Positions 2,585 through 33,195 of a stretch of DNA of 38,728 nt are shown piece after piece. The position numbers and the translations under genes are program-made. Numbering within the stretch: position 1 is the stretch's first letter; every line of letters starts with the position of its first letter. The stretch is from Planctomycetaceae bacterium (GTDB taxonomy: Bacteria > Planctomycetota > Planctomycetia > Pirellulales > Pirellulaceae): the NCBI GenBank assembly GCA_015490875.1, contig WFWZ01000151.1:1-38728 (forward strand). The letters are read 5' to 3'. The notes under the pieces are model-generated. The model searched no databases, was not told the DNA's origin, and was given only the letters and a program-made list of their open reading frames with translations.

Positions 2585-4222
2585 GTGAGCCGCTACAATC
2601 GTCACGATCCGCAAAGTCTCGCTCGCCCTGTTGTAGATCGCCCACTTCGAATCGCCTGCACGCTCGTCGTTGCAGCAACTTTGTGGCTCCCTTCGGTACT
2701 CGCTACCGAGCACGCCTTTCTCGAACGAGCGCTCTCCTCGATCACCTCCGAGGATCTGACGGAAGTCGTCTCAGTCTTGGCGGACGACACGATGGAAGGG
2801 CGAGAAGCAGGAACGCGCGGCGGACACGCGGCATCCGGATACCTGCTCCAGCGTCTCGTGCGTCTGAAACTCCAACCGGCCGGCGAGGAGGGCACCTACG
2901 TCCAGACTTTCGGCGCCGATTATCGTAATGTGCTAGCGATTCTCCCAGGGAGCGACCCCGAACTTGCTCGAGAAGTCGTCGTCGTGGGAGCCCATTACGA
3001 TCACGTCGGCTACGGGACGCGGCGCAATAGCTACGGCCCGATTGGATACATCCACAACGGAGCTGATGACAATGCCAGTGGCACCGCAGCAGTCCTTGAA
3101 ATCGCTGAAGCTCTGTTGCAACTTCCCGAACCGCCAGCTCGAACGATTCTTTTTGCGTTCTGGGACGGCGAAGAAAAAGGGTTGCTCGGCTCGAAACACT
3201 GGCTCGCTCATCCCACGATCGATCGCAGTCGCCTCGTGTTCGCCTTCAACTTCGACATGATTGGTCGACTGCGCAATGACCGCCTCGAGGTCTACGGAGC
3301 TCATACGGCGAAGGATGTACGAGCGTTGTTGCTCCGAAGCAACCATGATCCTACCCTCCGACTCGACTTCCGCTGGAAGATGAAGGCCGACAGCGACCAC
3401 CATGTCTTTTTCAGCTATGACATTCCCGTCGTCATGTTCCATACGGGCTTGCATGAGAACTACCATCGGCCCAGCGACGATGTCGAGACACTGAATACTG
3501 AGGGGATGGAGCGAGTCACACGCTTTGCGCTGGAATCGGTCATCCAGATCGCCGATAGAGACACATCTGTGTCGTTCCGAGAAGCCTCGCAATGGGAAGA
3601 CGTTTCGACGCCCGAGCGCCTTCTGGCGGAAGCGCCGCCCCGACGACTTCGTCTGGGGATCTGGTGGTCGGTAGATGACTCCTCCGAATACCCGCTCGTC
3701 GTTTCCCGCGTCGTACCGGGCAGCCCGGCGGAGCAGGCCGGTGTGCAACCGGGGGACCGCGTGATGCGGCTCGGTGAAACAGCAATCCACAGTGAAGCCG
3801 CCATGCGGAGGACGGTCGACGAATCGTCGGGCGAGACTGTGTTGGTCGTTCGGCGGTTCGGTCACGCCGAACCACTCGAGCTGTCAGTCGCCTTGGCCGG
3901 TCCTCCTCGGCTATTGGGCATCCTCCTGCGGGACGATCCGGCGAACCCGAGCGTGCGGATCGTTACGTTCGTGGATCCGGCCTCGCCGGCCGCCAAGGCG
4001 GGTCTTCGAGTGGGAGATCGATTGTACGGAATCAACGGCCGGAGGTTCGGAGCGGGGGACGACCACGCGATTCTCGATCCCGACGCCCAAGGGCGGTGGC
4101 GTTGTCAGGTCGAGCGGAACGGCCGTCTGGTGGAACTGGTGGCGGAGCGTCTTCAAGTAGCCCATTCTTCGGACGAACCATCGCAGCAGCCCGCTGAAAC
4201 CAATGCGGACGTGACGAACTGA
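2585..4222 (+). CDS. Secreted M28 family zinc peptidase with two C-terminal PDZ domains
   Basis: This is a predicted exported M28 aminopeptidase/carboxypeptidase-type enzyme. I chose the GTG at 2585 because AGGAG lies at 2571-2575, nine nt upstream; the longer TTG start at 2531 has no such site. The 545-residue protein opens with a basic stretch and a hydrophobic core (IACTLVVAATLWLPSVLA), a signal peptide or membrane anchor. The dinuclear zinc site is complete: H137 (HYDHVGYG), D162 (GADDNASG), catalytic E196 and ligand E197 (WDGEEKG), D224 (NFDMIG) and H294 (ENYHRPSDD). Two PDZ domains follow, at about residues 360-440 (PGSPAEQAGVQPGDRV) and 440-520 (PASPAAKAGLRVGDRL), which usually bind substrate C termini or regulate access. 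The gene stands alone, with a promoter-like sequence on either side. Confidence 0.92.
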   Translation: MSRYNRHDPQSLARPVVDRPLRIACTLVVAATLWLPSVLATEHAFLERALSSITSEDLTEVVSVLADDTMEGREAGTRGGHAASGYLLQRLVRLKLQPAGEEGTYVQTFGADYRNVLAILPGSDPELAREVVVVGAHYDHVGYGTRRNSYGPIGYIHNGADDNASGTAAVLEIAEALLQLPEPPARTILFAFWDGEEKGLLGSKHWLAHPTIDRSRLVFAFNFDMIGRLRNDRLEVYGAHTAKDVRALLLRSNHDPTLRLDFRWKMKADSDHHVFFSYDIPVVMFHTGLHENYHRPSDDVETLNTEGMERVTRFALESVIQIADRDTSVSFREASQWEDVSTPERLLAEAPPRRLRLGIWWSVDDSSEYPLVVSRVVPGSPAEQAGVQPGDRVMRLGETAIHSEAAMRRTVDESSGETVLVVRRFGHAEPLELSVALAGPPRLLGILLRDDPANPSVRIVTFVDPASPAAKAGLRVGDRLYGINGRRFGAGDDHAILDPDAQGRWRCQVERNGRLVELVAERLQVAHSSDEPSQQPAETNADVTN

Positions 4223-4259
4223 TCAGCGCACCTGACGCTGACCTGGTTCGCTGGCTTTC

Positions 4260-4288
4260 TTGACACCGCCTTGCGCACTCCTCATGAT
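4260..4288 (+). promoter_or_regulatory. Sigma-70-like promoter for the sulfatase operon
   Basis: A perfect -35 TTGACA at 4260-4265 is followed after 17 nt by CATGAT at 4283-4288, which matches the -10 consensus at four of six positions. Transcription would start near 4295, leaving a leader of about 144 nt before the first sulfatase start at 4439. Confidence 0.5.
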
Positions 4289-4295
4289 GAAGCGG

Positions 4296-4313
4296 GCCGC
4301 ACTCCCGTGCGGC
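4296..4313 (+). other. Perfect 7-bp stem-loop at the predicted transcript start
   Basis: GCCGCAC and GTGCGGC form a perfect seven-base-pair stem around the loop TCCC. It begins one base after the predicted start of the sulfatase operon transcript. There is no T-run after it, so it is not a standard terminator. A 5'-end stabilising hairpin is one possible role. Confidence 0.45.
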
Positions 4314-4438
4314 ACGCGTCTGGCGGACGACTCTCAAGATACGCACACAACAGCGGTGGTCCCCCGATAGGAGATACTGCCGCCCCAGTCGCTCGCCGCG
4401 CCCAGATTACCGGCCGACAAGCCCAGGGAGAGACGAAC

Positions 4439-5980
4439 ATGAGTAGGCAACGGTGGCAGTGGTGGATCGGTGGGCTCGTGGGGATCATGCTGTGCGGAAG
4501 CGGATTGCGTTCGGAGGAAACGCTTCCAATGAAGCGTATACCGGGCGTCAAACCGCGCAACGTGATCTTCATTCTCGTGGACGATCACCGCTATGACGCG
4601 ATGAGCTACATGGGGCATCCGTTTGTCGAGACCCCGAGGCTCGATCAATTGGCTCGCGGAGGCGTCCATTTCGCCAACGGCTTCGTGACCACATCCCTCT
4701 GCTCCCCGAGTCGCGCCTCGGTCTTGACGGGGCAATACATGCACCACCATGGCGTCGTCGACAACAACCGGATGGTGCGCCCGGGAACGATCTTCTTTCC
4801 GCAGTACCTTCAACAGGCGGGTTACGAAACCGCATTTATCGGCAAGTGGCACATGGGAGGGGGTTCGGATGCGCCTCGTCCCGGGTTCGATCATTGGGTC
4901 AGCTTCCGAGGACAGGGATTCTATTATCCGCCCCGGCGAAAACGTCCGTGGGTGCTCAATGTCAACGGCCGTCACGTGCCGCAAAAGGGCTACATCACCG
5001 ACGAACTCACCGACTATGCCATCGACTGGTTGAAAGGGCGTACGGGTGAAAAGCCGTTTTTCCTCTATCTTTCGCACAAGGCGGTCCACGGCATGTTCTA
5101 TCCGGCCAAGCGGCACGAAGGTCGCTACAAGGGCCGCAAGATGCCGATTCCGCCGACGATGGCCAACACGCCTGAAAACCGGCGCAACAAGCCCCGATGG
5201 CTGCTCGATCAACGCAACAGTTGGCACGGTGTCGAATTCGCCTATCACCAGAAGACCGACATCCAAGAGCATTACCGGCTTTACTGCGAGGCGCTCTTGG
5301 CTGTCGATGAGAGTGTCGGGCGCGTGATGGATTATCTCAAGGAACGCGGATGGTACGACGACACGCTCGTCATCTATATGGGCGATAACGGCTTCCAGTG
5401 GGGCGAGCACGGACTGATCGACAAGCGGACCGCGTACGAAGCTTCGATGCGAGTTCCCTTCATCGCTCATTGCCCTTCCCTCTTTTCTCCCAACACGGTC
5501 TGCAAACAAGTCGTCGCGAATATCGACATTGGACCGACGATCCTGGAGGCAGCGGGAATCGAGACGCCCGAACATATGGACGGCCGCAGTTTCCTGCAAC
5601 TGGCGGCCGGCAAGCTCCCGCCGGACCAGTGGCGCAAAACGCTGCTCTACGAATACTACTGGGAATGGAACTTCCCTCATACGCCGACGACGTTCGCGTT
5701 GCGCAGCGAGCGATACAAGTTCATCCAGTACCACGGCATTTGGGACCTGGACGAGTTCTACGACCTTCAAGAAGATCCGCACGAACAGCACAATCTTCTG
5801 GAAGATCCGCGGTATCGCAAACTTGTCGTTCAGTTCCGTCGGGAACTCAATGAACGACTCGAAAAAGCTGGGGCCAACCGCGTGCCTTTCACGGCCAAAC
5901 GGGGGCTCGGCAGCCACTATCGGCTCGAGTCGGGTAGTCATGGAGCCGACTTTCCCAAGAGCTTTTACCGGGACGAGTAA
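4439..5980 (+). CDS. Exported formylglycine-dependent sulfatase (first of two)
   Basis: This is a type I sulfatase that hydrolyses sulfate esters. The ATG at 4439 has AGGGAGAG at 4425-4432 and gives 513 residues; the frame is open further upstream but lacks a ribosome site there. A short signal peptide is visible (WWIGGLVGIMLCGSGL). Metal-binding Asp residues sit in LVDDHRYD, and the active-site signature CSPSRASVLTG places the formylglycine precursor at C88, which needs a maturing enzyme (FGE) encoded elsewhere. GKWHMGG holds the conserved Lys and His, and YMGDNGFQWGEHG the C-terminal metal-site Asp-Asn. The ending DLQEDPHEQHNL is typical of the family. The overall look, with the ITDELTDYAIDWL region, resembles N-acetylglucosamine-6-sulfatase-like enzymes, but the substrate cannot be read from sequence. 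It is the first gene of a five-gene set. Confidence 0.95.
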   Translation: MSRQRWQWWIGGLVGIMLCGSGLRSEETLPMKRIPGVKPRNVIFILVDDHRYDAMSYMGHPFVETPRLDQLARGGVHFANGFVTTSLCSPSRASVLTGQYMHHHGVVDNNRMVRPGTIFFPQYLQQAGYETAFIGKWHMGGGSDAPRPGFDHWVSFRGQGFYYPPRRKRPWVLNVNGRHVPQKGYITDELTDYAIDWLKGRTGEKPFFLYLSHKAVHGMFYPAKRHEGRYKGRKMPIPPTMANTPENRRNKPRWLLDQRNSWHGVEFAYHQKTDIQEHYRLYCEALLAVDESVGRVMDYLKERGWYDDTLVIYMGDNGFQWGEHGLIDKRTAYEASMRVPFIAHCPSLFSPNTVCKQVVANIDIGPTILEAAGIETPEHMDGRSFLQLAAGKLPPDQWRKTLLYEYYWEWNFPHTPTTFALRSERYKFIQYHGIWDLDEFYDLQEDPHEQHNLLEDPRYRKLVVQFRRELNERLEKAGANRVPFTAKRGLGSHYRLESGSHGADFPKSFYRDE

Positions 5981-6010
5981 TTCCGTCGGGCGGGCTCGGG
6001 TGGAGGCACC

Positions 6011-7147
6011 ATGGCGCAGCGCAAGAAACGCGAAATCCGTGACGAAGATTATGCGGTGCGCGCGGCCAGTCCTCGCAGGCGCATCGAAGCCCCGCCGCTC
6101 CCCTACCAACCACCACGGCCTCGCGGCAAGCCGCCAGGGATCGGCGTGATCGGGTGTGGCGGCATCATTCCATCGCATCTGCGCGCCTATCGCAAAGCCG
6201 GCTACCGCGTAGTCGCACTCACCGACTTGGACCGCGCCAAAGCCGAGTCGGCTCGCCGACGCTTCGCTCCGAAAGCCCACGTTTGCCAATCGGCTGCCGA
6301 ATTGCTTGCGCGCGACGATGTCGGTGTCGTCGATATCGCCACGCATCCCGAACCGAGAGTTGAACTGATTCGGCAGGCGATCCGAGCGGGCAAGCACGTA
6401 TTGAGCCAAAAGCCGTTCGTCGAAGACTTGACGGTCGGACGCCGACTCGTCTCGATGGCCCGACGCCGTGGCGTACGTCTGGCGGTCAATCAAAACGGCC
6501 GGTGGGCTCCTCACGTCAGCTACGCCCGCGAGGCGATCGCCGCCGGGCTGTTGGGCGAGGTGATGGCGGTTGACCTTTCGGTCCATTGGAACCACAACTG
6601 GTGCGCCGGCACGCCGTTTGACAAGATCCGGCATCTCGTCCTGTACGACTTCGGCATCCACTGGTTCGACATGGTGCACTGTTATTTGAAAGACCGAAAG
6701 GCTCGATCGGTTTTCGCGTCGGTCACCCGTTCGACTACCCAGCGGACACGGCCGCCGCTGTTGGCTCAGGCAGTCATTCAGTTCTCGAAGGCTCAAGCTT
6801 CGGTATTGTTGCGTGCCGACACGACACATGGAGCCCAGGATCGCACGATCATCGTGGGGACGCGAGGCACACTGGTGAGCGAAGGTCCGGATTTGAATCG
6901 ACAAAAGGTCAAACTCTATCTGCCCGAAGGGATTGCGCGGCCGAAACTAACGACGCGTTGGTTCGACGACGGTTTCGACGGCACGATGTCGGAGCTGCTG
7001 TGTGCGATCGAAGAGGACCGCGAACCCACGAACTCTGCAGCGGACAATTTGCACTCCCTGGCCCTCTGTTTTGCGGCACTCGAGTCCGCGGACACCGGCC
7101 AGCTCGTTTCCCTCCGCAAAGCTCGTGGCACCGTCCACGCTTCGTAG
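6011..7147 (+). CDS. Gfo/Idh/MocA family NAD(P)-dependent oxidoreductase
   Basis: A cytoplasmic dehydrogenase of the family that oxidises or epimerises sugars, inositols and related polyols. The ATG at 6011 follows GGAGG at 6001-6005. After a 45-residue basic, proline-rich lead-in comes the Rossmann nucleotide motif GIGVIGCGGIIPSH. The catalytic Lys lies in SQKPFVEDL, where the more common EKP reads QKP. The C-terminal domain has DFGIHWFDMVHCYL, with the conserved His and Asp of the active site. At 378 residues it is of normal size. It starts 30 nt after the first sulfatase and ends 39 nt before the second, so all three are probably co-transcribed, and its substrate is likely a sugar or polyol released by desulfation (inference). 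The family is certain; the reaction is not. Confidence 0.93.
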   Translation: MAQRKKREIRDEDYAVRAASPRRRIEAPPLPYQPPRPRGKPPGIGVIGCGGIIPSHLRAYRKAGYRVVALTDLDRAKAESARRRFAPKAHVCQSAAELLARDDVGVVDIATHPEPRVELIRQAIRAGKHVLSQKPFVEDLTVGRRLVSMARRRGVRLAVNQNGRWAPHVSYAREAIAAGLLGEVMAVDLSVHWNHNWCAGTPFDKIRHLVLYDFGIHWFDMVHCYLKDRKARSVFASVTRSTTQRTRPPLLAQAVIQFSKAQASVLLRADTTHGAQDRTIIVGTRGTLVSEGPDLNRQKVKLYLPEGIARPKLTTRWFDDGFDGTMSELLCAIEEDREPTNSAADNLHSLALCFAALESADTGQLVSLRKARGTVHAS

Positions 7148-7186
7148 CGTTTCACGTCACGTCGTTCATCTGAAGAGGCGATTCCC

Positions 7187-8812
7187 ATGTGCGAGCATCT
7201 TATGAGTCTCGGAAAGCGATTCCCGCACTGCCGTCGATCATTGGCGGCGCGTAAGCTTGGAAGTCGAAAAAACATTCAGCGAGTGAGTTTCCCGTGTATG
7301 GTCGTCGCCATCACGACTTTGCTTGTGGCGACGACATCGCTGGTCCGCGCCGTGGCAGAGGAAAACTCACCGGGCGCCCACACGAAGAATCGTCCCAACT
7401 TTCTCGTCATCATTACCGACGACCAGGCTCCGGAGTCTCTCCGCTGCTACGGCAATCGCATTTGTCGCACTCCCAATCTCGACCGACTGGCTCGCGAAGG
7501 CATCGTGATCGACGACGCGCACCACATGGGATCGTGGGTGGGCGCGGTTTGCACGGCCTCGCGAACGATGCTCATGACTGGCCGGACGTTGTGGCGCGTT
7601 CCTGGAGCTCGCGGGCCGGGGATCGAGCCGGCCACGAAGGAGGATCGCCGTCGGGCTGCCCACTGGTCATTGCCGGCCGTCTTCCACCGTGCGGGATACG
7701 AGACATTTCGAACGTGCAAGAAAGGAAACAGCTTTCGCGAGGCGAACGCCGAGTTCGCCATTCGGCATGAAGCGACAAAGCGAGAGGGAACGGCCGAGGG
7801 CGGCAGCCAATGGCATGCTGACCGTGTGTTGGATTACCTCGAGGAGCGATCCAAGCGCACCGACCGGCACCCCTTCTTGATCTATTTCGGGTTTTCGCAT
7901 CCTCATGACCCTCGAAACGCGATCCCCGAGTTGGCGGCTCGGTATGGCGCCTCGAACAACGGCCCGCCCGACCAACCCGATCCTCGGTCACCCCCCTTGT
8001 CCGACAATTACTTGCCGCGGCATCCCTTCCACCACGGTCACCCGAACCTGCGCGACGAAGTAAAGGTCTCGGGCGTGATGCGTCGGCGAGACGAACCGAC
8101 GATCCGTAACGAAATGGGGCGTCAATACGCGTGCATCGAAAACATCGATCGGCAGATCGGCCGCGTACTTGCCAAGCTCGAAGAAATGGGAGAACTCGAC
8201 CAGACCTACATCCTTTTCACCTCGGACCACGGCATCGCCGTCGGGCGGCATGGGTTGATGGGAAAACAGAACCTCTATGAACACAGTTGGAAGGTCCCGT
8301 TCATCGTACGCGGGCCCGGCATCCGGCCCGGGACTCGCGCATCGGGCTATATCTACCTGCTCGACATCTTCCCGACGTTGTGCGACCTGGCGGGAATCCC
8401 TGTTCCCGAGACGGTCGAGGGAAAGAGTTTTCGGCCGGTACTGGAAGGTAGACAAGATCGCGTGCGCGATGTCGTCTATGGCGTCTATTGCGGAGGAACC
8501 AAGCCGGGGATGCGCGCCGTCAAATCGAACGGCTGGAAGCTGATCGTCTACAACGTTCTCGACGGTGCGGTGCGCGAAAAGCAACTGTTCGACCTCCGCA
8601 AGAATCCACGCGAATTCCTGCCCGAACATCACAAACCCGAGTTGGCCGAGCGTCTCGGCATTTCGCCGTCCGAGGAACAGACCGACCTGGCGGAGCATCC
8701 TCGGTGGGAGCAGCAACGGCGGAAGATGGAGCGATTGCTTTACCGGGAAATGAAGCGATGGGGCGACCCTTATGCAGACGACTTCGATTTAGACCGAGGT
8801 GACAGCAAGTGA
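7187..8812 (+). CDS. Exported formylglycine-dependent sulfatase (second of two)
   Basis: A second type I sulfatase, 541 residues from the ATG at 7187, with AAGAGG about ten nt upstream; ATGs at 7202 and later are possible and would shorten the unusually long leader. A hydrophobic segment (MVVAITTLLVATTSLVRAVA, about residues 38-57) is the likely signal anchor. Metal ligands are in IITDDQAPES. The active-site signature is VCTASRTMLMTGR with C122 as the formylglycine precursor; it is the C-x-A-x-R form, unlike the C-x-P-x-R of the first sulfatase. FTSDHGIAVGRHG carries the C-terminal Asp-His, with Lys and His following. The two sulfatases are clearly different in sequence, so they probably attack different bonds of one substrate rather than being a recent duplication. 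Confidence 0.94.
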   Translation: MCEHLMSLGKRFPHCRRSLAARKLGSRKNIQRVSFPCMVVAITTLLVATTSLVRAVAEENSPGAHTKNRPNFLVIITDDQAPESLRCYGNRICRTPNLDRLAREGIVIDDAHHMGSWVGAVCTASRTMLMTGRTLWRVPGARGPGIEPATKEDRRRAAHWSLPAVFHRAGYETFRTCKKGNSFREANAEFAIRHEATKREGTAEGGSQWHADRVLDYLEERSKRTDRHPFLIYFGFSHPHDPRNAIPELAARYGASNNGPPDQPDPRSPPLSDNYLPRHPFHHGHPNLRDEVKVSGVMRRRDEPTIRNEMGRQYACIENIDRQIGRVLAKLEEMGELDQTYILFTSDHGIAVGRHGLMGKQNLYEHSWKVPFIVRGPGIRPGTRASGYIYLLDIFPTLCDLAGIPVPETVEGKSFRPVLEGRQDRVRDVVYGVYCGGTKPGMRAVKSNGWKLIVYNVLDGAVREKQLFDLRKNPREFLPEHHKPELAERLGISPSEEQTDLAEHPRWEQQRRKMERLLYREMKRWGDPYADDFDLDRGDSK

Positions 8813-8880
8813 CATGATGGTGTCGCCGCAGGTGTCGGATCTCGAAAGTGCATTCGTTGGAAAAAGGGAGGCGGTAGACG

Positions 8881-9873
8881 ATGGCGACGATTCGGGCGGC
8901 CGTGGCTCAGGCGGCAGGCGTTCCGTTTGACCGGGAAAAGACACTCGAGCGCCTCGAAGCGTGGGCACGGCGGGCGGCGGAAGAAGGAGCTCAACTGATC
9001 GTCTTTCCCGAAGCCTTCGTCGGAGGATATCCGTGGGGCGCCGACTTTGGGGCTTGTGTCGGTCGACGCACACCCGAAGGTCACGAATGGTATCGACGGT
9101 ATCACGCGGGAGCCGTTGATGTTCCCGGCAAGGCCGTCGATCGCATGACTGAAGTGGCTCGGCAGACCGACCTCCATCTCGTCGTGGGCGTGATCGAGCG
9201 GGACGGAGGAACGCTCTACTGCACCGTGTTGTTCTTCTCTCCCGAAGGATACCTTGGGAAGCACCGTAAGGTGATGCCGACGGCTGCCGAGCGGCTTGTG
9301 TGGGGGTACGGGGACGGGTCCACGCTGCCCGTCTTTTCGACGCGCATCGGTCGATTGGGCGCCGTGATTTGCTGGGAAAACTACATGCCCCTATTGCGCA
9401 TGGCCATGTATGGCAAGGGCATTCAGCTCTATTGCGCGCCGACGGCCGACAGCCGCGAACGGTGGGTGGCTTCGATGCGGCATATCGCGTTGGAGGGCCG
9501 CTGTTTCGTGTTGTCGGCTTGCCAATTCTTGCGTCGAGGCGATTTTCCGCCCGAGTTTCCGACTTGTTTCGGTGACGACCCCGAACAGATCGTTTGCCCA
9601 GGGCGGAGTGTGATCGTCAGTCCTGCGGGCGAGGTCTTGGCTGGTCCTCGCGACGACGGCGAGTGTCTGCTCACGGCTGATCTCGATTTGGACGATATCG
9701 TGCGAGGCAAGTATGACTTCGATGTGACAGGGCACTATGCGCGCCCCGATATCTTTCGGCTCGTCGTAAACGAACGGGCGACGCCACCGGTGCAGTGGGA
9801 AAGTGACATATCTTCGTCAGAAAGTTCCGAGCCGCTCCTTCCTTCGCGAACGGAGGAGTCGCATGACCGTTGA
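8881..9873 (+). CDS. Nitrilase superfamily enzyme, nitrilase branch
   Basis: A cytoplasmic carbon-nitrogen hydrolase that converts a nitrile (or possibly an amide) to a carboxylic acid and ammonia. The ATG at 8881 follows GGGAGGCGG. The Glu-Lys-Cys triad is complete: E44 in VFPEAFVGGYPWG, K130 in GKHRKVMPT and C164 in AVICWENYMPLLR. The CWENYMPL context and the PEAF-GGYP segment are those of true nitrilases rather than of amidases or N-carbamoylases, and 330 residues is a normal length. It begins 68 nt after the second sulfatase and its end overlaps the next gene by 11 nt, so it is probably translated together with the aldolase-like protein. The substrate is unknown. Confidence 0.93.
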   Translation: MATIRAAVAQAAGVPFDREKTLERLEAWARRAAEEGAQLIVFPEAFVGGYPWGADFGACVGRRTPEGHEWYRRYHAGAVDVPGKAVDRMTEVARQTDLHLVVGVIERDGGTLYCTVLFFSPEGYLGKHRKVMPTAAERLVWGYGDGSTLPVFSTRIGRLGAVICWENYMPLLRMAMYGKGIQLYCAPTADSRERWVASMRHIALEGRCFVLSACQFLRRGDFPPEFPTCFGDDPEQIVCPGRSVIVSPAGEVLAGPRDDGECLLTADLDLDDIVRGKYDFDVTGHYARPDIFRLVVNERATPPVQWESDISSSESSEPLLPSRTEESHDR

Positions 9874-10891
9874 TGCTCGAGTCACTCGTGTTCTCCAACG
9901 TGGATGTGTGATTCCTGCCAGCCCATTGGCTCTGGATGCCGATCGACGGTGGAATCGCGAACGTCAGAGGAAACTATGGGAGTATTACGACCGCTCGGGC
10001 GTCGGGGGGATGGCGATTGCGGTTCACACGACGCAGTTTGCGATTCGCGATGTCGGCCTCTTTCAGCCGCTGCTGGAGTTTGCCGGGGAAGTTCTCGATG
10101 AGATCGATCGGGGACGGGACGAGCCGCTGGTGCGAGTTGCGGGTGTCTGCGGCCGGACCGATCAGGCGATCCGGGAAGCGGAGTGGGCTCGCAAGCACGG
10201 TTTCCACTATGGCCTGGTCAGCCTGTCAGCGTGGAAGGGTGCGTCGCTCGAGGAGTGTCTCAAGCACTGCCGGCGCGTCGCCGAAGTGATCCCTCTGTTC
10301 GGTTTCTACCTCCAGCCGGCGGTCGGCGGCGTCGAACTTCCTTATCGCTTTTGGCGAGAGCTTTGCGAGTTGGAGAGGCTGGCGGCCATCAAGGTCGCCC
10401 CCTTCGATCGCTACCGGACGCTCGATGTCATGCGTGCCGTCGCCGACTCCGGACGCACGGATGTGGCCCTCTATACGGGCAACGATGACAACATCGTGGT
10501 CGACCTGCTGCAGGTTTATCCATTCGAACGAGACGGAGAGGTCCGCCGAGTTCGGTTCGTCGGTGGATTGCTCGGTCAGTGGGCGTGTTGGACGCGCCAA
10601 GCGGTCGAGTTGCTCGAGCAGTGCCATGCCTATCACCGAGGCGAACGCGACTACTCCTTCTTCGAACCGTGGATCGTGGGCTTGACCGACGCTAATGCCG
10701 CGATCTTCGATGCCGCTCATGGATATGCCGGATGCATCCCTGGAGTCCATGAAGTACTGCGCCGCCAGGGGTTGCTCGAGGGGACATGGTGTCTCGATCT
10801 GAAGGAACAGCTCAGTCCCGGCCAGGCGGAGGAAATCGACCGGGTCATGCGAGACTATCCATTCTTGGTCGATCCTCCCGAGGAGGCATAA
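9863..10891 (+). CDS. Dihydrodipicolinate synthase (DapA)-like class I aldolase/lyase
   Basis: A TIM-barrel Schiff-base lyase of the DapA/N-acetylneuraminate lyase superfamily, in a subfamily of about 340-360 residues that I recognise from planctomycetes and actinobacteria but which has no settled function. The ATG at 9863 follows GGAGGAG at 9852-9858 and overlaps the nitrilase gene by 11 nt, which suggests translational coupling. The Schiff-base Lys is K177 in AAIKVAPFDRY and the partner Tyr is Y149 in FGFYLQPAVGG. The segments GGLLGQWACW and TDANAAIFDAAHGYAGCIPG near the C terminus are characteristic. True DapA is about 290 residues with a different active-site context, so lysine synthesis is unlikely. 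The neighbours suggest that it cleaves or condenses a keto acid in a catabolic route. Confidence 0.88.
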   Translation: MTVDARVTRVLQRGCVIPASPLALDADRRWNRERQRKLWEYYDRSGVGGMAIAVHTTQFAIRDVGLFQPLLEFAGEVLDEIDRGRDEPLVRVAGVCGRTDQAIREAEWARKHGFHYGLVSLSAWKGASLEECLKHCRRVAEVIPLFGFYLQPAVGGVELPYRFWRELCELERLAAIKVAPFDRYRTLDVMRAVADSGRTDVALYTGNDDNIVVDLLQVYPFERDGEVRRVRFVGGLLGQWACWTRQAVELLEQCHAYHRGERDYSFFEPWIVGLTDANAAIFDAAHGYAGCIPGVHEVLRRQGLLEGTWCLDLKEQLSPGQAEEIDRVMRDYPFLVDPPEEA

Positions 10892-10905: not shown

Positions 10906-11409
10906 CTAAGGCTCTCCGTTGCTTGGGAGGAGAGTTGCCGGCTGGTTTGGGGCCACCGAAAGACGCAGGATGCCGGAAAGGTTCAGCGTCTGGCGTAGTC
11001 CTTTCAGTTGCGCAAGGAGGGCGTCGGACTGCTGAAGGTACGTCTCGAGTTGCCCGGCCAGTGGGTTGGCGTCGGCGCGGACGGCCAGTTCGTCGCCGTC
11101 ATATTGCAGTTCGACGGGGGCTTCGAATGGAATGTCGGCATCAGCCAGGATCTGGGAAACCTGTTGGGAGAGTTCGACCAGCTTTTGGGCGATGGCTTGG
11201 CGCCGAGCCCAGTCAGCCAGACGCAGACCGGCGACGGTCTGGACAGAGCCGTCTTGTGCCGCGTCGCTTTGTTGTTGGTGTTGTGAAGCGGAAGTGGTCT
11301 CAGGAGCCAGCCACTGGCGGAATGATTCCTGGAGGCCACGAATTCCTGTTTGGAGGACGTTCGCGGTCGCCTGGATTCCCGCTACCATGACCAGCGGTGA
11401 AATCGACAT
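10906..11409 (-). CDS. Hypothetical 167-residue protein, function unknown
   Basis: I do not recognise this protein. The ATG at 11409 (minus strand) has AAGGAG just upstream, so it is probably a real gene. The N-terminal 25 residues (SISPLVMVAGIQATANVLQTG) are mildly hydrophobic but not a clear signal peptide. A central Gln/Ser-rich stretch (SASQHQQQSDAAQ) looks disordered. The C-terminal half is helical with many Leu and Gln (LVELSQQVSQILADADI and LETYLQQSDALLAQLKGLRQ), which suggests coiled coil and self-assembly. It converges with the aldolase gene 14 nt away and diverges from the DNA glycosylase gene. Confidence 0.7.
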   Translation of the reverse strand: MSISPLVMVAGIQATANVLQTGIRGLQESFRQWLAPETTSASQHQQQSDAAQDGSVQTVAGLRLADWARRQAIAQKLVELSQQVSQILADADIPFEAPVELQYDGDELAVRADANPLAGQLETYLQQSDALLAQLKGLRQTLNLSGILRLSVAPNQPATLLPSNGEP

Positions 11410-20098: not shown

Positions 20099-23000
20099 CT
20101 ACAGAACGTCCCACTCCTCGTCGTCGTCGCGGTCCTCAAGGATGTCGTCCAAGGCGGCGAAAAACCAGTCCCGTCCTTTCTCCCCTTTGACGATGTCCTG
20201 GACGCCGTCGTCGAAGACGGTGACCTTCGGAAGAAGTTTTGGGCTCGTTCCCGTTCGAAGGCTGGCGACTCGGGCTTGGTACGTATCCTTCTTGGTCCAT
20301 TTTTCCAGGATCTCGTCGAGGGCCTGCGCGTTCTCGTCGAAATTCGTATAGCCGGCGATCACCATGTCGTCGCCTCGCTCTCCCTCCAGTTCATCCGCCC
20401 CGCGACCACCGATCAAGAGGTCATCACCTCGCCCGCCTTCGATTTCGTCGTCCCCGTCACCGCCGACCACGATATCGTTTCCTTTGCCGCCCTCCACCTT
20501 GTCGCTTCCCGCTCCAGCCAAAATCACGTCGTTTCCATCATCTCCGTCGATCCGATCGTCACCGTCCCCGGCGGTCACACGGTCATCGCCTTCTCCCGCA
20601 TGGATCCGGTTGTCGCCGTCACCGGCATCGATCAGATCGTTCCCATGGCCGCCCGAGATGCGGTCGTCTCCGGCGCCGGCCGTGATCGAGTCGTCACCCT
20701 CGCCGGCCCAGATCCGGTTGTCACCGTCTCCGGCGTCGATCACGTCGTCGCCTCGGTCGCTCCAAATCTTGTCTGCTCCAGCCCCCAGAGTAATCGTGTC
20801 ATCGCCCCGGCCACTCCAGACGCGGTTGTTTCCGCTGAGATCGACGATCGTGTCATCGCCCTCTCCGGTAAATAGGTAGTCATTCCCGTCGCCGCCATCG
20901 ATGTAGCTCTGCAAAGCCCGGCTATGGATGTCGTCGTTTCCAGCTCCAGCGAAGATGCTCACCGGTACCTTGATCGTCGAGTGATGTTTCGGCCCTCCGA
21001 TGTAGGCGCGGTCGGCGCCGTCCAGCAGCCAGGCAGAGATGGATTTCACCTGGTCCGCCTTGAACGCAACCTTGTGAGGCTCGAGAAAACTGGCCTTGAC
21101 CTCGATTTTGTCCTTGTGCCGCCTGATGAAGACAATGTCTCTCTTCGGAGTACCGACGATGACGAGCTCGCCATTCTTCAAGGCGACTCCTGTCCGGTAC
21201 GTCTCGGTGACCGCCTGGTCGGCACCTCCGTCGTCGTCCTGGACCACGAGCGCCACCTGATAAACGCCCGCCTCCGCGTAGGTGTGGCGAGCCGAGAGCG
21301 TCCCCGAGCCGCTGCCCTGGTTGAGCGTGATACCGCCCGATGTCGTGCTCCGAGTTCCATCGCCCCAGTCGATCACGGCAGTGTGCGTGTCGAGCAGGCC
21401 GACATCGGAAAACGCAGCCGAGACAGAGACTTCCCGGTTGCTGCCGCCGGCAGGTTCCACGGCGAACGAGTCGATGACGGGCGAAACGTTGAGCACTGTG
21501 ACTTCCAAAGTACCGATCGTCTGCCCACCGTCGTCGTCGGAGACGCGAATGCCGACGGCAAAAGTCCCGTCATCGGGAAACGTCCAGTCGAAGACGCCGG
21601 TGGAATTGCGAGCGTCGAAGGTACCGTTGTTGTCGAAGTCGACTTCGTACGTGAGCGGGTCGTTCGCCCCGCCGGGATCGGAAGCGAGCACCGTGAGTGA
21701 GAACGGTCCGTTCTCCGTAACGCGGCGGTTGACGTCGGCACGGTCGATCGTCGGATCGGCATTCGCCACGTCGACTCGGAGACGGGCGGTCGCCGATGAT
21801 CCGTCTTCGTCGGTGACGCGTACGTTGACGAAATAGACGCCGTCTTCACCATAGACATGCTGTGCCGTCGGCGAAGCCGTTTGGATTTCGAAGAGGCCGT
21901 CGTCGTCGAAATCGAACTCGTACGTCAGCCGTCCCTCGGGAGCCGAGTCGCTCGCGTCGACACGAACGACCGCCGGCGACCCTTCGACGGTGGCGACGTT
22001 CTGCAGGGCGACTGCGGAAATCGTCGGAGCGACGTTGTTGACGGTCACATCGAGCGTACGAACGTCGGAGAGCCCTCCATCGTCGTCGCGCACGCGCATG
22101 GCAACCGTGAACGTTCCCGCCGCGGGGAACACGTGTGGGACGACCCCGTCGCTGTCAGCCACTTCGAATTGGCCGTTGTTGTCGAAATCGAACTCGTAGG
22201 TCAACACATCTGCGGAAGCCGGATCGGAAGCCTGGACCGTGAAGGTAACGGGCGACCCGTCGTCGACCGGACCATCGTGGGCGACGCTGTCGATCACCGG
22301 CGCTACGTTTCGGACCTCGACGAACCAGGGTGTGACGATCGACTCGACTCCCTGCGTGTCGTCGCGCGCGGTGGCCGTGATGCGCACGAGCCCATTGTCG
22401 GCATACGCGTGCGTCGCTTCGGTTGCCGTGCCGGCGACCGTTTCCGTCTTCCCGTCGCCCCAATCGATGATCCATTGATCAATGACGATTCCGCCGGGAT
22501 TCTGCAACTGAAGCGTATAGACGGAACCCTCGTCCACACTTTCTTCCCCAACGATGGCTGGCCGTTCGACGACGGTGACAACGATATCCGCCGTGTATGG
22601 ACCTCCATCTTCATCGAATGCCTCGATAGCAATCGTGTTGTTGCCGACGCGATCATCGGCGTAGACGTGCGTGACCGTCGCGTCGTTCGCCTCGAACGTC
22701 TCGAGTTCCGAGCCGTCTCCCCAGTCGATCGTCCACTGGGTGATCGTGTCGTCTCCCGGATCGGAGGCGGTAAGGTTCAGCGTCACCGGGCGACCCGCCG
22801 CAACCGGGGACGGAGAGGCAATGACGTTCAACACGGGCGCCACATTGGCGACCGAAATCGTCGTGGAACTGATGTCATACTCTTCCGCCTCGCTCGTGAC
22901 TTTCAGGGCGATCGGGTAATCTCCATCGTCGTCGATTCCAAACGCGGCCAGATCCGACCATTCCAGCGAAACCGACTCGCCGACTCGATCTCCGAACGTG

Positions 23001-26000
23001 CCGTCTCCGTCGATGTCCCACTCGAACAGCGCATTGGGGAATAACTGCGGATCCTTGACAGTTCCAGCCAGCGACACACCTTGACCTTCAGTCGTCGTGT
23101 ACGGTCCGCCGGAATCCGGCTGCGGCACCGTGATCGCGGCGAGGTTTTCGATGTCGACGTAGGAGACGCGAGCGCGCCCCAGCGCCTGGATGTTGCCTTC
23201 GGGCACGACGGGATTGGATGAAGGATCCAAGGCGAGGCCGGCCGCATCGTACAACAATCGGTCGAAGGGAGCGGGCGGGTTGTTCGACGGACTACCTCCA
23301 TCGATCGAAACGTCCCCGAACAATTCGTCAGCCGCCACGCGAATGGTATCGGCACCGTCGCCGGCATCGATCGTCGTCAACGAGCCAGTGTTGGTACTCC
23401 AAACAAAGACCCGATCGTCTCCGGCGCCCATGCGGAAGACAGGCTCCGCGCCGACCGCTACGCTGCGAATCTCCAGCGTATCGTTGCCGTCGAGTGCCGG
23501 AGCGCTCGAGCTTCCCAGGTCGACAAACATCGGCGCCGCTGTGCCTGGAGCCGTGTTCAGCACGACGACCTGGTCCGAGCCCCCTTCCGTCCGCACGGTG
23601 AGCGGGATCCGCACATCGCGGATACTGACTTGATCGAACGCGTTGGCCGAGGCGACTTCCAAAGTCGCGACGGCGTCGTCGTACTCCATCTCGTAGCGCG
23701 GCGACTCGACAGAGCGGAACGTCAAACCAAACACCGTAAGCGCATTGAGGGTGGCCGGCGAGGCCGTGTCGTCGGTGATCTCGAGAGTCCAAACGCCATT
23801 GGCGTCCTCGCCGAGGAAACGGTCGAGAGAGCCTTCCGGTCGGAACCGCCCGCGGAAGGGCGCGCTGCCGCCAGCGATGCTGGCATAGGCCTGGTCATCC
23901 AACGTCGTGGCGACGAGGTTGTCACCTGTGCCCCCGACGTCCGTGAAGAGTTCGACGCGCGTTCCAGAAGGGCTGGTCAAGAAGACGTCGAGATCCTCCA
24001 CATTGTCATGCACGATATAGAGGAGCACATCGACATCGTCGATCTCGCTGGGTCCGTCGTTGATCGTCAGCGTGGACGTAATCGTGCCTTGAGACGGAAT
24101 GATCTTGCCGACATCCGGACTGAATGTCGGCTGCACGGCTCGGAAAGACGAGATACCTCCTTGGTTCAACGAGTCACCCAAGTTGGCCGTATAGACGATC
24201 GTGCCGCTGACATTGCCGGCGAGTTCCGTCGGCGCGGCGAGTCCGGTCACGCCCTTCGAGCCGTTGCGCAGCCGCTGGACGTAGACCAGCTTCCCGGAGA
24301 CGGGATCGCGAGCGAAGACGACGATCGTGTTGTCTTCTTCGCCGGCGACGTAGACCAGGCCGTCGTCTCCGCTGACCAACACGTCGCTGAGTCCCCGCAT
24401 GCCGAGCACGCCATCCTCGCCGTTGCGGATGGTTTGGATCTCCGTCAGCACACCGGTCGCCGGATCGCGGCTGAAGACCGAAAGAGTCGCGCCCGCGCGG
24501 CTGCCCACGTAGACGAACCGGTCGTCGCCACTGACCGCGATCGAATCGGGATCGGACAACGCGACATCTCCGACGCTCGTGTATTGGTAATTCGCAGCGT
24601 CAGTCCGCTGCCAGATTCGGATCTGATCCGCATCGGGATCGGTCCAGTAAAGGAAATCGCCGTCGGACGTCACGGCCAGGTCGGCCCCCGTCGCGTCGAT
24701 GTCGGCCTTCCTCGCCAATGTCCCGTCGCTCGCGTTGAAGCTGACGACGGCACTCTTGGTGGTACCGACGAGGTAGATCGTCGAGCCGCCCGGGCCCACT
24801 TGGACAAGTCGAGGAGTTCCAATCGCGACGCTCGAGAGACGGTCCGACATCTGCAACAGCGTGTTGCTGCCTCGCCGAAATCCGGTCAGTGAGGAGCGGC
24901 CGGCAGTTTCCGAGGGCGCGGCGACGAAGACGGTATCCCCATCGACGCTCACGTCGATGTCGACTGCGCCACGCAGCCCGACGACTCCACCCGACCCCTG
25001 CCAAAGCACCGAATACGGTTGGCCGAGCCGCGTCATGTCGATCAGCGCGCCGACCGTCGGACTGACGGCATACACTCGGTTCTTCCGTCGATCGGGCAGC
25101 TCGTCGTCGGTCCCGTACGCGATCGCCTGGATGCTCGGAATGAGCCGCGTCGGATTGGAACCATTGGTCACAGTCTGCATCAGCACTGGAGCGTTCGGCT
25201 GCGTGATGTCGAAGACGCGGATTCCATCACCGACTGGAACGAATAACAGCGGCAGCGACGGGTGCAGCTCGATCCGACCGGTGGATTCGGAGCCGAGCGG
25301 GATATCTTGGCGGGTGACGAGCCGGCGACTGTTGGACAAGATGCGGAAATGCACGAGGGTCCGACCTACCCCGTTGGTATCCTTCAAGACCACATAAAGT
25401 CGTTTGTTGTCGGAGCTGAGTCGAATGTCGCTGGACGACTCGGCGACGCCGGGCAAGGAAATTGTCTGCTGGGGAGCCCACCCCGAGAAGCCGGGTATGC
25501 GACGGAAGAGTTGCAGAGTCGGATTGGGGCCTTTTTTCGAGACATAGTAGAAAGTTGTCGAGTCGAGATACTTCACGGCGCCGGGTGCGAGCGTCGTCGA
25601 AAGAACCTTTTCCGTGCCAAGGATACCGCTGCTGGAACTGATCGGCCTGGTCTCGAGGGTGGCACGGTTGGTTCCAACTTCCGTGCGGCTGATCAACATT
25701 TCCTGGCCGTCGGGTCGGATGTCCAAGTCGACGGCGTATCCGTAGTCGTCGTATTCGATCCATGAGGTCGTCAGTTTGGGAAAGCCCGGATAGGAGCGTT
25801 CGAACTGGTGCATGAGGACGGCAGGAAGCACGTTGGTCGATCGGTTGCCTCGAACGGCCTGATAGACGCGCACCTTGCCGGAAGGAAGTTGGACTACGTC
25901 GAGCGCATCGGATTGACCATAGCCGAACCGGGCTTCGGCGCCCCCCGCTCCTTTCACCAGTTTGAGCGATCCGCTGGCGCGCCGCTGAAAGCTGAAAAAC

Positions 26001-29000
26001 TGATTCTCGGAAACGACCTCGAGAAAGCCGTCGGGAGTGAACTTCATTTCTCCTGACCGCAGACCTCGCCTTGCCGGCAAGACGGGAAGGACGGTCGTGC
26101 CCAGATAGAATAACCGACGGTCGGTCGGATCGATCTCGAATATATTGATGCTGTTGTCGCCGAGCGCATACAGATTGCGCCCGTCGGGACTGACGACGAT
26201 TTCCACGAGATCGTTGAGTCCCTGAACGGCCTTGAAGGGAGCCTGGAGGCCGTTCTCAGTCGCCTCGGCGCGGAGCACTTCCTCGAGTTTCGTGACCGTG
26301 ACGTTCTCGCCCGCGATTTCGATCTGCTTGTCGACCGTACGGCCGTCGCGAACCTCAACGTTGTCCAGGCCGGACGGGTGTCCCAGAAAGACGACTTTCT
26401 CGGCACCGATCGCCTCGATGAACTGCTGTTCTACCGTTCCGGACTCGGCGTAAACGACTCGATTCCGGAGACTCCAGTCGAGGCTGGTCGCGTTGGAAGC
26501 GTTGTCGATGGTGACCGTCTCGACATCGAAACCGAGACCACCGAATTCGGACGGAAGTCCCGCGGGCGCTGAGTTGACGACGAGTGTCACCCTATCGTCA
26601 CCTTCGCCGCCGATCACCGAAGTCAGGGGTCCGCGCACCTTGTCGACGGTGATCCGGTCATCGCCTCCATTCCCTCGGACGGAAATCACGGCCCCCGCGT
26701 TTGTGTCCTCGATGGTCAACTGGTCATCTCCAGCCCCCAATTCGAACTCGAAACGTTCGATCGTGCCGTCGATAGGAACGGGCTGGTTGAAAAAGCCGGA
26801 GATGGAAGTGGGGGTCATGACCGCTGCCATCGGTGTCATCTCGGCGGACCGATCGATGACCAGCGTATCGGTGCCGCCTCCGTCGTCGAATGCAAGCGCA
26901 TCGTCGAAGCGGGCGAGGATCAACGTATCGTCGCCTTGGCCCAAGTGGACGACAGTTGGTGAAGTCACCGAGTCGATGCGGATCCGGTCGTTGCCGCCAC
27001 CAGCATCGACCGTCAGCGGCAAAGTCACGCCGCCGACGGTCAAGTCGTCGGCATCTCCGCTCGTCAAGAGGATGTCGACGAACTCCACATTGGCGTATGG
27101 CACAGTGGCGCTTCCGAGCGAGCTGGCATCGATGCGGTAGAATCGTCCAGTCAGTCGACCGCGGCTTCCCGTCTCCACACCGTTGTAGACGAAGCGGTCC
27201 GTGCCGGTTCCGCCGTCGGCTCGAAGATCTCCGAACCCGACATCGAGGAGGTCGTCCCCCTGATCGCCGAACAACTGATCCCCTCCGGCTCCACCGGCAA
27301 GCTGATCGTCATCCTGGCCGCCGCGGAGTTGGTCGTTCCCGTCTCCTCCACTCAGCAAGTCATCGCCGAACCCACCTTGGAGATCGTCGTCGCCCTCGTT
27401 GCCCACGAGTTGGTCGTCCCCCAGACCGCCGATCAGCACATCGTCGCCGAGAGCTCCGATGAGAATGTCATTGCCTCGACGGCCCTCAAAGCGAACGCCG
27501 CGCATTCCCGTGGCGGTCAGCGTGTCGTCGAAACGCGATCCCAGAACCGTATCGCTGCCGCCGTCGGTAGTGAACGACACAGCCACACTGTTGTCACTAA
27601 AGTCGATCAGGTCGTCTCCGCCTCCGTCCGAGACGACATTCGCCCCGGTTCCCGTGATCAGCGTATCGTTGCCACGGCCGCCCCTCAGGTCGTCGTCTCC
27701 CTCTCCTCCATCGATCTGGTCGTCTCCGGCCCCGCCGATCAGCGTGTCGTTTCCTCCTTGACCGTCCAGTTCCACGGGAATGTCGGCAACGCCGCTCATG
27801 TCGAACGTATCACCGTACGGTCCGCCGATCGCCAGAATGCGGCTGAAATCGCCGTCGTACACCTGGTCCGTGACGCCGAATCCAGAAACGAGGATGCGTC
27901 CGTTCGAATCGGTTCGAACCGTGACCTCCGCCGGGCCATCGGTGTCGTCGGTGTCTCCGAAGAGTCTCGCACTGGCGAACGGTCCCGTGTTGATTCTCAG
28001 CACCCGTTTCGAATGGATCGTGACGGGCTCGGCGAGAACCGGAGGCCGGCTCTTGAACGTTCCGACGATCGTGCTGGAACTACCCGATCCGTCCCCTCCG
28101 CAGAACTTGAACTTCGAGTCGAGCAAGTCGAGCAGGCTGAACGCGCCGGTGTTGAGTCCCATGTCGGCGGAGATGTCGGTGCGAAGATCGGACCCGAAAG
28201 GATTGGGCGCGATCAGCGTGGCGCTCCCGCCGATATCAACGGCTGCTCCGGCTCGCACATCGAACATGCAGAAGAGACGCTCGGGGTTCCGGAAATCGTT
28301 CGTCAGTGCGAACAGTTCATCGAGCCGGAATTTGCCATCGTTGTTGGGATCAAGCAGTTCCAGTCCTACGTAGGCCGGGAGGTTGATGTCGTCCGGATCG
28401 GTAATGAAGACGCGTCCGTCCGCCTCAAAAAAGGGCGTGTCGATACTCCCGGTTCCCGCGAACCTCGCCGTCGCCCCGAATTCGAAACCGTCTTTGTTGT
28501 TCTGGATGGCGAATCCGTCGAGAAGATCCCGGAAGTCGGGGATCTGTCCCGAGGCGGCGGTTCGGACGATCCGTTCCAGGCCCACCGAATCGTAGACGAA
28601 CCGGAGATTGCTGTCGAAGGTCGCCGAGCCTGAGATATCGAATGCCAGGTCCTCGAAGCCGAACCGGACGTCGAACCCGGCGTCGAAGTCGATGGTCGGC
28701 AGCCCGAAGCTCACGATGTTCAGCGGCTCGCCAAGCAGCAAGTTGAAGATATTCTGCGGCTCGAACAGGTCCCAACTGAAACCGGGAGGTTGCGTAGAGC
28801 TCAGAGCGGTAAACGTGCGCATGAAGCTGCCGATACCGATCTCATCGAGGCTATCCGCGACGGACGTCAGGTCGGTCGGCAGGGGAAGTTTGAACTTGGG
28901 AAAGAAGAAAGGACTGGTCGGATCGAACACGAGTTCGAGTCCGCCGAAGGTGAACTTTCCGTTCTCGTCGACCGCCTGCTTGAATTCGTCGCTGTCGAGG

Positions 29001-32000
29001 AAGGATTCGACTTTGTCGCGGAGTCCCGCCACGGCATCGATCACCGAAACGAAACCGTCGATGGCGGCGTCGAGTTCGTCGCCTAGCCCGATGTCCTCGA
29101 TCACACCGGCGATGGAGACCTTCTGGTCGAGAATATCGCTGATCAGCGGGAGGCGCTGATTGAGCAGGCTTCGCGTGTCATTCGCCGAATCGCCGATGAA
29201 CTCGATGGCTGGCTCGAGGACGCCGACGAACGCGTCGGTGATGGGCAGGGCCACCGATTCCATGAACTTCCGAATATCGAGTTGGATGTTGTCGAATTGG
29301 AAGCTGCTGATCTTGAAGACGTCCTTGAGCTTATCGAGGCTCTTCAAGTCGCTCGGCTTCGCATCCCCGGTCGCCACCTTGTATGCCTGTTTCAGGGCTT
29401 CGGCCAGGTCGACGTCGACATCGACCTTGAAGTCGAAGTCGACTTGAGGCAGCCCGATCGTCCCTTGCGTGACGCCCAGCGCCTGCTCGATGAGCCCCGT
29501 GAAGTTGTCCGAGTTGACATTCACATGGAGACGAACCTGGCCTTTGCCTTTCAGTTGCGGCGAGAAGACATTCATCAGATTCTTCTGGTTCGCCACGATC
29601 GTGGTATAGGGAAGCCGATTGAAGAATCGCTGATCGTTGGGAGACGCCTTGCGGCCGGCCGGATCATCGTCAGGGTTCTTCACGTCGACGGCGGCGATCA
29701 CGCGCAACTTGGTCTGATCGACGACGGGAAACGTCGTCGTCAGCAGTGGTGCTTCGGAAAGCGGATCATTGGGATCCGCGTAGGAAATAAGCTTGAACCG
29801 ATCTCCGTTGACGATTTCGACGCCGACGGTCCCTGGGAACAGATTCGTTTTCGAGGCGATTTCCCCCTGGATCAGTTGCTCGAGTTTGGCCCTGAGTTCC
29901 TCGAGCGTGTCGATGCTTCGATTCTTGATTTCCTGAAAGGTGATCCGGATCGCCTTGCCGCCTTGGGTGATCGTTCGTCCATCGACGTCGACGCGCTGCC
30001 CGCCGACCCACAGTCGCCAGTCGGGACTGTCGATCATCACACCCTCGGCCGGAGCGGGGAACTCGGCGACGAGTTCCTGCTTCTTGACGAGCTGCCGTCC
30101 TCCCGCGTTCTGGAATTCCGTCGCCGTGCTGGCGGCGTTGTTTCCGAACCCCATTCCCTGCACCCGGCGATTCTCGTATTGGACCGGCAAGAACCCGAGG
30201 TTTTCCGCGCCACGGATCTCGAGTCGATTGATTTCGGGATACCGTGCGTTGAGGAGAAGAGACGGAGTGGTCGGCGAGTTCGGATTGAAGAACGCGTCGA
30301 TCCGACTGAAATCGAGACTGAAGTTGACCGGAGGAAGTGGAGTCTTGAAAGCGGCGATGATGGCGCCGTTGAGTACGGGAAGCAGTCCGATCGTCGGAAC
30401 ATTCGGCACATCGATGCGCACCGGATCGTTGTCGTCGACGATGATTTCCAGATCGACGTTGTACGTATCGTCCAATTCGATGTCGATCCCACGGGGAGCG
30501 GTAACCTGAACGGCGGCGGGAGTTCCGTCCGTGATCTTGGCCTGGATGAAACCGAGGTTGGCCGTGGCGCTGAGATTCGGCGTCGTGACGACATCGGTGA
30601 ACAAGTCGCCAAAGGAGACCGCTTCTGTGGAGGGAGCCGCGTAGACGTCGATCTTCGCCCGCAACTCCTCAACGCTCGGGCCGTCGGGCAATCCGTTCTC
30701 GGTGGCGAAACTCACGAGGTAGACGTTCTGGGACGCGATTTCACTCAGGCCGAATCCCAGCCGAGCGTCCCAGCGCATGTCGAACCGGATGCCGTTGGAG
30801 GCGCTGACGTTGAACCCGAGCGTATTGAGAAACCCGTCGAAGAAGGAGCCGAAGTCCTCGTCCTGACCGAGGCTGTTCTTGCCGGTCATGAATCGAGCGA
30901 TGTCATCGAAGCCCAAGTCGAAATCGGGAAGATCGAAGACGATGCGCTGGCCGACCTGGAACCGGAACTCGAACCAATACGTCCCTTCGCGGTCCTGTCC
31001 CAGTTCGAACACGATGTCGTCGGGGTCGATGCCCGCTCCGAGGTCCGGTCCGTCCTTGAGCAGATTCAGGTTGAACTTGGGGATGTCGATCCCGAGTCCG
31101 ACGAAAGCATCCTTGAAGAGATCGCTCAATTTCGCCAAGCCGTTGTCGAACGGGGCCAGGGCCAGAAACAGAGCGTTTTGGACGAGTTCCGGGACGGTGA
31201 CTCCCGGATACTTCTCGATCGCGCCACGACTGAAGCTGAGAACTTCAGAGAGGAAGTCGCGCGTCTCGGTGCGCATCGTCTGGAACGCATCGATAACCGG
31301 CTCCAACCCTTCGCGCAGTTGATCTCCGATGATCGGAAGGTCGAAGGTTGCGAAAGCTGGTTCGACGGCGGTGAGCATCTTGTCGAAGAAGGTATCCACC
31401 GCGTCCAGGATTTCGCCGGCCGCATCGACGATCAGCGTGGCGCTGCGAGTCAAGGCCTCTTCGCGGTTGATCCCGTTGGTCGTGTTGTCGAACATCCGCG
31501 TATTGGTCAGGCGAACCAGACCTCGCCGGTTGACATCGGGGTCGGAGATATCGTTGTAGAACGATCCGCCGGCGGAAAAGGCCTCGTTGCCGCGAATGGC
31601 GCTGTCGGCGAGAGTCACGACGCCGCCCCGATTGAGAAGGCCGCCGCCCACATCCTCCGATCCGCCTGTAATTTCCACGCCGGCGATCTTCACCTTGGGG
31701 TTGCCCGAGCTCTGCGGACCGATCAGCACTTCGAACACGCGGTCGAGTCCAGATGCGTTGATAATGGTGGGAGGGGAGAGGAGCTCGTTTTGTCCGGGCA
31801 AGAGCTGTTCACCTCGCAGGACTTTGCCGGCGCCGGCACCGAAGATTGTGACGCTATCGAGAATGTCGAGGTCGCCGGTCCGTGCAGCGTCTTCGCCTTT
31901 TCCGGCGCGAGTCAGATCGTACTGGCCGGAGGGGAGGATGATCGTGTCGGTTCCGGGAGTCGTATTCGAGGCGATGATCGCCTCGCGGAGCGACATCTGA

Positions 32001-32200: not shown

Positions 32201-32371
32201 GATGGAACCTCCGGTGAGAGGAATCGAAGACTTGGGCCGAATGGCTCAGGAGAGGAGATTGCGCAAACCGGCTCGATTCTTACACAAAAGCCGCCACATT
32301 TCCGAATTCGCCTGGAGAAGGCACGGGGGCGAGACTGTTGGGACCCCGTCGAAAGTCCCCGTGCGGAACGT

Positions 32372-32399
32372 TTGCAGTCGGCGCCGACCCCGTTATACT
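32372..32399 (+). promoter_or_regulatory. Promoter for the ECF sigma factor gene
   Basis: TTGCAG at 32372-32377 and TATACT at 32394-32399 are 16 nt apart, both five- or four-of-six matches to the housekeeping consensus. Transcription would begin near 32406, 56 nt before the sigma factor ATG. On the opposite strand the same -10 reads TATAAC, so divergent use toward the giant gene is possible, but no -35 supports that. The rest of 32201-32461 shows nothing further. Confidence 0.5.
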
Positions 32400-32461
32400 G
32401 GGTGCCGTCTTTTCCATGCCGGGCGACCGGTCACTTGAGGCTTGGGGCTGAGGACGTCTCG

Positions 32462-33049: not shown

Positions 33050-33195
33050 GAAAGGTGAAAGAATCTCCTCGGTTTCGTCCATTCTAATGATGCAGGTCTG
33101 CCTCTGGGGGGTTGAGAGCCGTCTCGGACCATCGCCGTACTGGTTCCTCGTCGCCACGCCGGTACGGATGAAGTTTGCATATGGGCGAGGTCAAC

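Follow-up and report, generated by a model that had tools for sequence, protein, structure and literature searches.

Five co-oriented genes of a Pirellulaceae-type planctomycete, encoding two type I sulfatases, a Gfo/Idh/MocA-type oxidoreductase, a nitrilase and a DapA-like lyase, probably make up a lineage-specific heterophyletic sulfatase operon of a single genus. The operon would serve desulfation and the breakdown of sugars or sugar acids, with the nitrilase as an accessory gene. On present data, the five-gene set is specific to the genus. Because the set is found together in one genus only, a sugar-salvage operon that was assembled locally is a better fit than a novel pathway acting on a sulfated nitrile.

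Organization of the gene unit

The five genes are located on the + strand of the window, the 38,728-nucleotide stretch of DNA that was analysed. They are all intact and follow the order sulfA, gfo, sulfB, nitrilase and lyase. Intergenic distances are 30, 39 and 68 nt, and the nitrilase and lyase genes overlap by 11 nt; these figures, as well as the shared strand, had been given in a sequence-only reading of the window and are exact. A purine-rich, RBS-like site of the GGAG/GAGG type is present upstream of all five ATGs. Position 4260, from which that reading started the unit, is the position of the promoter. The sulfA gene itself begins at ATG 4439, and TTG 4271 marks an in-frame extension upstream of this codon. 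The sulfB gene starts at either ATG 7187 or ATG 7298, the latter of which would widen the 39-nt gap to about 150 nt.

The head of the unit carries a promoter-like element, GCTTTCTTGACA-N15-CTCATGATGA (4254-4292, + strand), with a promoter match of the form TTGACA-17-CATGAT at 4260-4288. Since the number of such matches is at chance level (one found, as against 1.7 +/- 1.1 expected in shuffled sequences), the element was judged by its conservation in a congeneric genome, G001. Upstream of sulfA in G001, the GCTTTCTTGACA-N15-CTCATGATGA element is identical in letters and spacing, while the rest of the intergenic region has diverged. The combination occurs only once in its own genome. The promoter is probably real, because both boxes are identical in the second species. 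The earlier claim of one good promoter is supported by the conserved boxes and not by the match count. No conserved internal promoter block was seen in the aligned gaps between the operon genes. Judged by its layout, the unit is operon-like, and the single promoter near 4260 would drive all five genes.

An 856-codon open frame, probably an artefact of codon composition in a GC-rich genome, runs antisense to sulfA and gfo (4334-6904, - strand). In G001, gfo likewise faces an antisense frame, though a shorter one. Further along the window are an open frame of 4033 codons (20099-32200, - strand), a sigma-70-family factor (32195-33049) and a 1407-aa protein kinase fused to WD40 repeats (33175-37398).

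Sulfatases, oxidoreductase and nitrilase

SulfA (4439-5980, + strand) and SulfB (7187-8812 or, from the alternative start, 7298-8812, + strand) both combine a sulfatase domain with the C-x-P/A-S-R motif of type I (formylglycine) sulfatases. In SulfA, the domain match (PF00884, E=5e-65) is accompanied by SGSH_C, and the formylglycine motif is CSPSR at residue 88. In SulfB, the PF00884 match is weaker (E=1.5e-42), and the motif is CTASR at residue 122. The closest PDB structures to SulfA are mucin-desulfating and GlcNAc-6-sulfatases (7p24, 5g2v). SulfB is far from solved sulfatases, its best match being 5g2v (E=2.5e-35). Inspection of the two N-termini revealed hydrophobic, signal-peptide-like segments. 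Both sulfatases are probably exported, in keeping with the desulfation outside the cytoplasm that had been proposed earlier. Once exported, they would strip sulfate esters off carbohydrate; to judge from the nearest solved relatives, the target of SulfA would most likely be the 6-O position of GlcNAc or Gal. The presence of two sulfatases in one unit is unsurprising, because the genome is sulfatase-rich and holds 51 sulfatase matches.

The gfo product (6011-7147, + strand) has the organization of a Gfo/Idh/MocA-type NAD(P)-dependent oxidoreductase. A Rossmann domain (PF01408, E=4e-19) is followed by C-terminal domains, and QKP (residues 133-135) occupies the usual position of the EKP motif, which supplies the catalytic lysine. 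Matches in the PDB are weak and include inositol 2-dehydrogenase and 1,5-anhydrofructose reductase structures. No signal peptide was seen in this protein, which may oxidise or reduce an imported sugar in the cytoplasm.

The nitrilase (8881-9873, + strand; PF00795, CN_hydrolase, E=6e-57) carries the three motifs of the catalytic triad, with Glu in FPEAF, Lys in HRK and Cys in CWEN. Its best PDB match is plant NIT4 (6i00, E=3e-119), the next nitrilase scoring 1e-52. On these features the protein is assigned to the NIT4 type, the branch closest to it and the one that includes bacterial 3-cyanoalanine nitrilases such as Nit4 of strain CECT5344. NIT4-type enzymes turn 3-cyanoalanine into aspartate and ammonia in both plants and bacteria (PMC8567248). 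By analogy, the window enzyme would yield an acid and ammonia by hydrolysis of a small nitrile, for which beta-cyanoalanine is the likeliest candidate. Unlike NIT4 systems, it is encoded in a sulfatase operon, and neither a cyanoalanine synthase nor cyanide genes were seen nearby.

The DapA-like lyase

The last gene (9863-10891, + strand) encodes a 342-aa protein which matches no Pfam or NCBIfam model at default thresholds, TIGR00674 included. At a loose threshold, PF00701 is detected with E=0.002 and 17.4 bits, below the curated cut-off of 22.1, whereas 36 of the 37 aligned members of the lyase family match this model. An AlphaFold model built from the 37-sequence alignment (pLDDT 93.5, pTM 0.92) is predicted to adopt the class I aldolase fold. 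Foldseek matched it to structures of human 4-hydroxy-2-oxoglutarate aldolase (HOGA), DHDPS and NAL. Lys177, Tyr149 and T57 are invariant in the 37 sequences, and T57 belongs to a TT motif at residues 56-57. The window lyase thus shares with DapA, N-acetylneuraminate lyase and 4-hydroxy-2-oxoglutarate aldolase (PF00701) the Schiff-base lysine, the active-site tyrosine and the TT motif on a TIM barrel. It differs from PF00701 enzymes in scoring below the Pfam cut-off, in its length (342 aa as against about 290), in lacking the DHDPS arginine and in the usual neighbour of its family, an SDR gene. Its aligned residues and predicted fold place the gene 5 product among the pyruvate-type class I lyases of the DapA/NAL superfamily and set it apart from DapA. 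It would form a Schiff base on Lys177 and make or break a bond adjacent to a pyruvate unit; its likeliest role is that of a lyase for 2-keto(-3-deoxy) sugar acids or hydroxy-keto acids.

If the lyase replaced or supplemented DapA, the aspartate that the nitrilase forms from beta-cyanoalanine could be directed to lysine or dipicolinate. Such a route would suit the products of NIT4-type nitrilases, and nit4 and dapA occur together in the cio cluster of Pseudomonas pseudoalcaligenes CECT5344 (PMC8567248). It is hardly credible here, however. The residue equivalent to Arg138, which is specific to DHDPS, is a valine in the window lyase, the YNIPGRTG segment of the organism's own DapA aligning with FYLQPAVGG in hhalign comparisons. 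Moreover, that true DapA is encoded elsewhere in the same genome and matches PF00701 at full strength (322 bits). A DapA role in lysine synthesis was rejected on these two grounds.

The lyase family spans many phyla, its members showing 50-64% identity. In 61 of the 80 loci analysed (L015-L094), a gene for an SDR (NAD-dependent epimerase-like, ~350 aa) lies directly upstream on the same strand. The pair annotated as 'NAD-dependent epimerase/dehydratase' and 'dihydrodipicolinate synthase family protein' in an Aquisphaera giovannonii plasmid and in Paenibacillus cellulositrophicus contains a lyase of the same family, within the same identity range. In contrast, the window lyase gene comes after the nitrilase gene. 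The SDR gene is present in the genus yet unlinked, on another contig in both species (G000:C61:16690-17709, L244; G001:C85, L245), where its own neighbours are conserved. No reaction assigned to the lyase family was found. In annotated records, the SDR and lyase pair is found near Gfo enzymes, sugar isomerases, mandelate racemase and carbohydrate ABC transporters. Because these neighbours are carbohydrate-related genes, we infer a role of the pair in sugar or sugar-acid breakdown.

Conservation within the genus

The sequence-only reading had made its proposal depend on the gene order not being unique to this genome. The same five genes, in the same order, are present in G001, the only congeneric genome compared. 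They are split there between two contigs by a break that falls inside sulfB. Contig C433 carries a peptidase M28 gene, sulfA, gfo and the first part of sulfB; contig C41 carries the remainder of sulfB, the nitrilase and lyase genes, a small minus-strand gene and a glycosylase gene. A 167-aa protein is encoded between the lyase and glycosylase genes of the window (10906-11409, - strand) and is kept in G001 (L186:2759-3259).

SulfA is 89% identical to its G001 counterpart. Synonymous sites are saturated between the two genomes (dS about 2), and dN/dS values range from 0.05 (sulfA) to 0.13 (lyase); all five genes are therefore maintained by selection. The kept order extends past the operon into the flanking peptidase and glycosylase genes and so forms part of a longer syntenic block. 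Gene order is kept at the unrelated SDR locus (L244, L245) as well. For these reasons, the conserved order does little by itself to support a pathway.

The same observations would suit genes that are neighbours by history and have no functional coupling, their order being kept as it generally is in the genus. The conserved order covers the flanking genes and recurs at the unlinked SDR locus, and every part of the unit is found alone elsewhere. Against this stand the short gaps, the restriction of the conserved element to the head of the unit, with none seen in the aligned gaps, and the clustering above chance of planctomycete sulfatase genes (PMC4807772). We give this explanation a modest chance.

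Distribution outside the genus

Orthologue-like genes were identified for gfo in 25, for sulfB in 39 and for the nitrilase in 4 of 99 genomes, the genus included. Among the ~97 relatives outside the genus, the corresponding figures are 23-24 for gfo, 37-38 for sulfB and 2 for the nitrilase, with 25-26 for sulfA. For the lyase, 12 of 58 relatives have an orthologue-like gene, with a weak match in one. Linkage of at least three of the five genes was found in none of the 98 relatives outside the genus. The sole close pair consists of convergent sulfA and sulfB genes 268 nt apart in G068; next comes G007, where 14 kb separate sulfA from gfo. Complete relatives, G007 and G028 among them, have the genes in scattered positions.

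Phylogenetic profiles, which rest on score cut-offs, were compared by Fisher tests that ignore the relatedness of the 58 genomes of varied completeness. They associate sulfA with sulfB (p=1e-4) and the lyase with the SDR (p=0.002). Across the same 58 genomes, the nitrilase, Gfo and lyase genes do not covary with the sulfatases or with one another. Within the phylum, the nitrilase has a patchy distribution (8 of 392 planctomycete genomes), and it is carried by many proteobacterial plasmids (44 records). None of nine other planctomycete nitrilase loci has a lyase, Gfo or sulfatase gene of this set as a neighbour. Likewise, the neighbours of Gfo orthologues at 15 loci are not conserved beyond an occasional second Gfo or a PhyH-like gene. 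A literature search for planctomycete clusters of sulfatases with a nitrilase returned nothing relevant.

These data bear on the single catabolic route that the sequence-only reading had derived from the combination. A sulfated nitrile or amide compound, for example one of the glucosinolate type, would be desulfated outside the cell; inside, oxidation would be followed by hydrolysis of the nitrile group and cleavage of the product to pyruvate. In favour of this route, both species have all five genes in one unit headed by a promoter, and purifying selection acts on each gene. Two unrelated lyase loci that lack the SDR gene, from Armatimonadetes and Phycisphaeraceae MAGs, also encode a carbon-nitrogen hydrolase. 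In L021, the hydrolase gene (2944-3846) adjoins the lyase gene downstream, and two Gfo genes are located upstream; in L088, the hydrolase gene (7709-9910) lies directly upstream of the lyase gene. These hydrolases, noticed post hoc at 2 of 80 loci, are the sole outside hint of a link between lyase and amidase, and neither was matched at 1e-10 when the NIT4-type nitrilase of the window was used as a query. Furthermore, outside the genus the nitrilase is neither linked to nor co-occurring with the lyase, Gfo or sulfatases, and the lyase family is without a nitrilase in nearly all contexts. One pathway for all five genes is improbable on this evidence. The earlier proposal is not borne out: apart from the sulfatase pair, there is neither linkage nor covariation outside the genus, the nitrilase is NIT4-like, and the usual partner of the lyase is an SDR. 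A sulfated-nitrile pathway was accordingly set aside as unsupported, given the absence of linkage and the failure of the nitrilase to covary with the other parts.

Discussion

Planctomycete heterophyletic sulfatase clusters have been described as operon-like groups of genes of mixed origin that vary even within one genus (PMC4807772). The window operon resembles them in its co-oriented, nearby and dissimilar sulfatase genes, in the differing history and distribution of its members and in its change between genera. It differs in having no glycoside hydrolase and in its additional genes, which encode the Gfo enzyme, the NIT4-type nitrilase and the DapA-like lyase. The operon is a further instance of these described clusters, unusual in its additional genes.

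Under the heterophyletic sulfatase operon that we favour, the exported sulfatases and the cytoplasmic Gfo enzyme and lyase would act on carbohydrate, and the nitrilase would be an accessory gene for nitrogen salvage or detoxification and not a step on the same molecule. Here, co-transcription, export, the substrates, the reaction directions and the uncoupled nitrilase are what we infer. The unit is incomplete as a sugar pathway, because no glycoside hydrolase, transporter or regulator is found within the five genes. An alternative, in our judgement very improbable, is that the operon encodes a novel catabolic pathway for a natural product in which a sulfate ester is combined with a nitrile (glucosinolate- or cyanoglycoside-like). 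The sulfate would be removed outside, and inside the compound would be oxidised, have its nitrile hydrolysed and release pyruvate.

The case shows planctomycetes building sulfatase operons from parts that are separate elsewhere, and cautions that a single gene order is poor ground for inferring a pathway. A useful by-product is the lyase, a member of a cross-phylum family with a frequent SDR partner, which is now open to testing.
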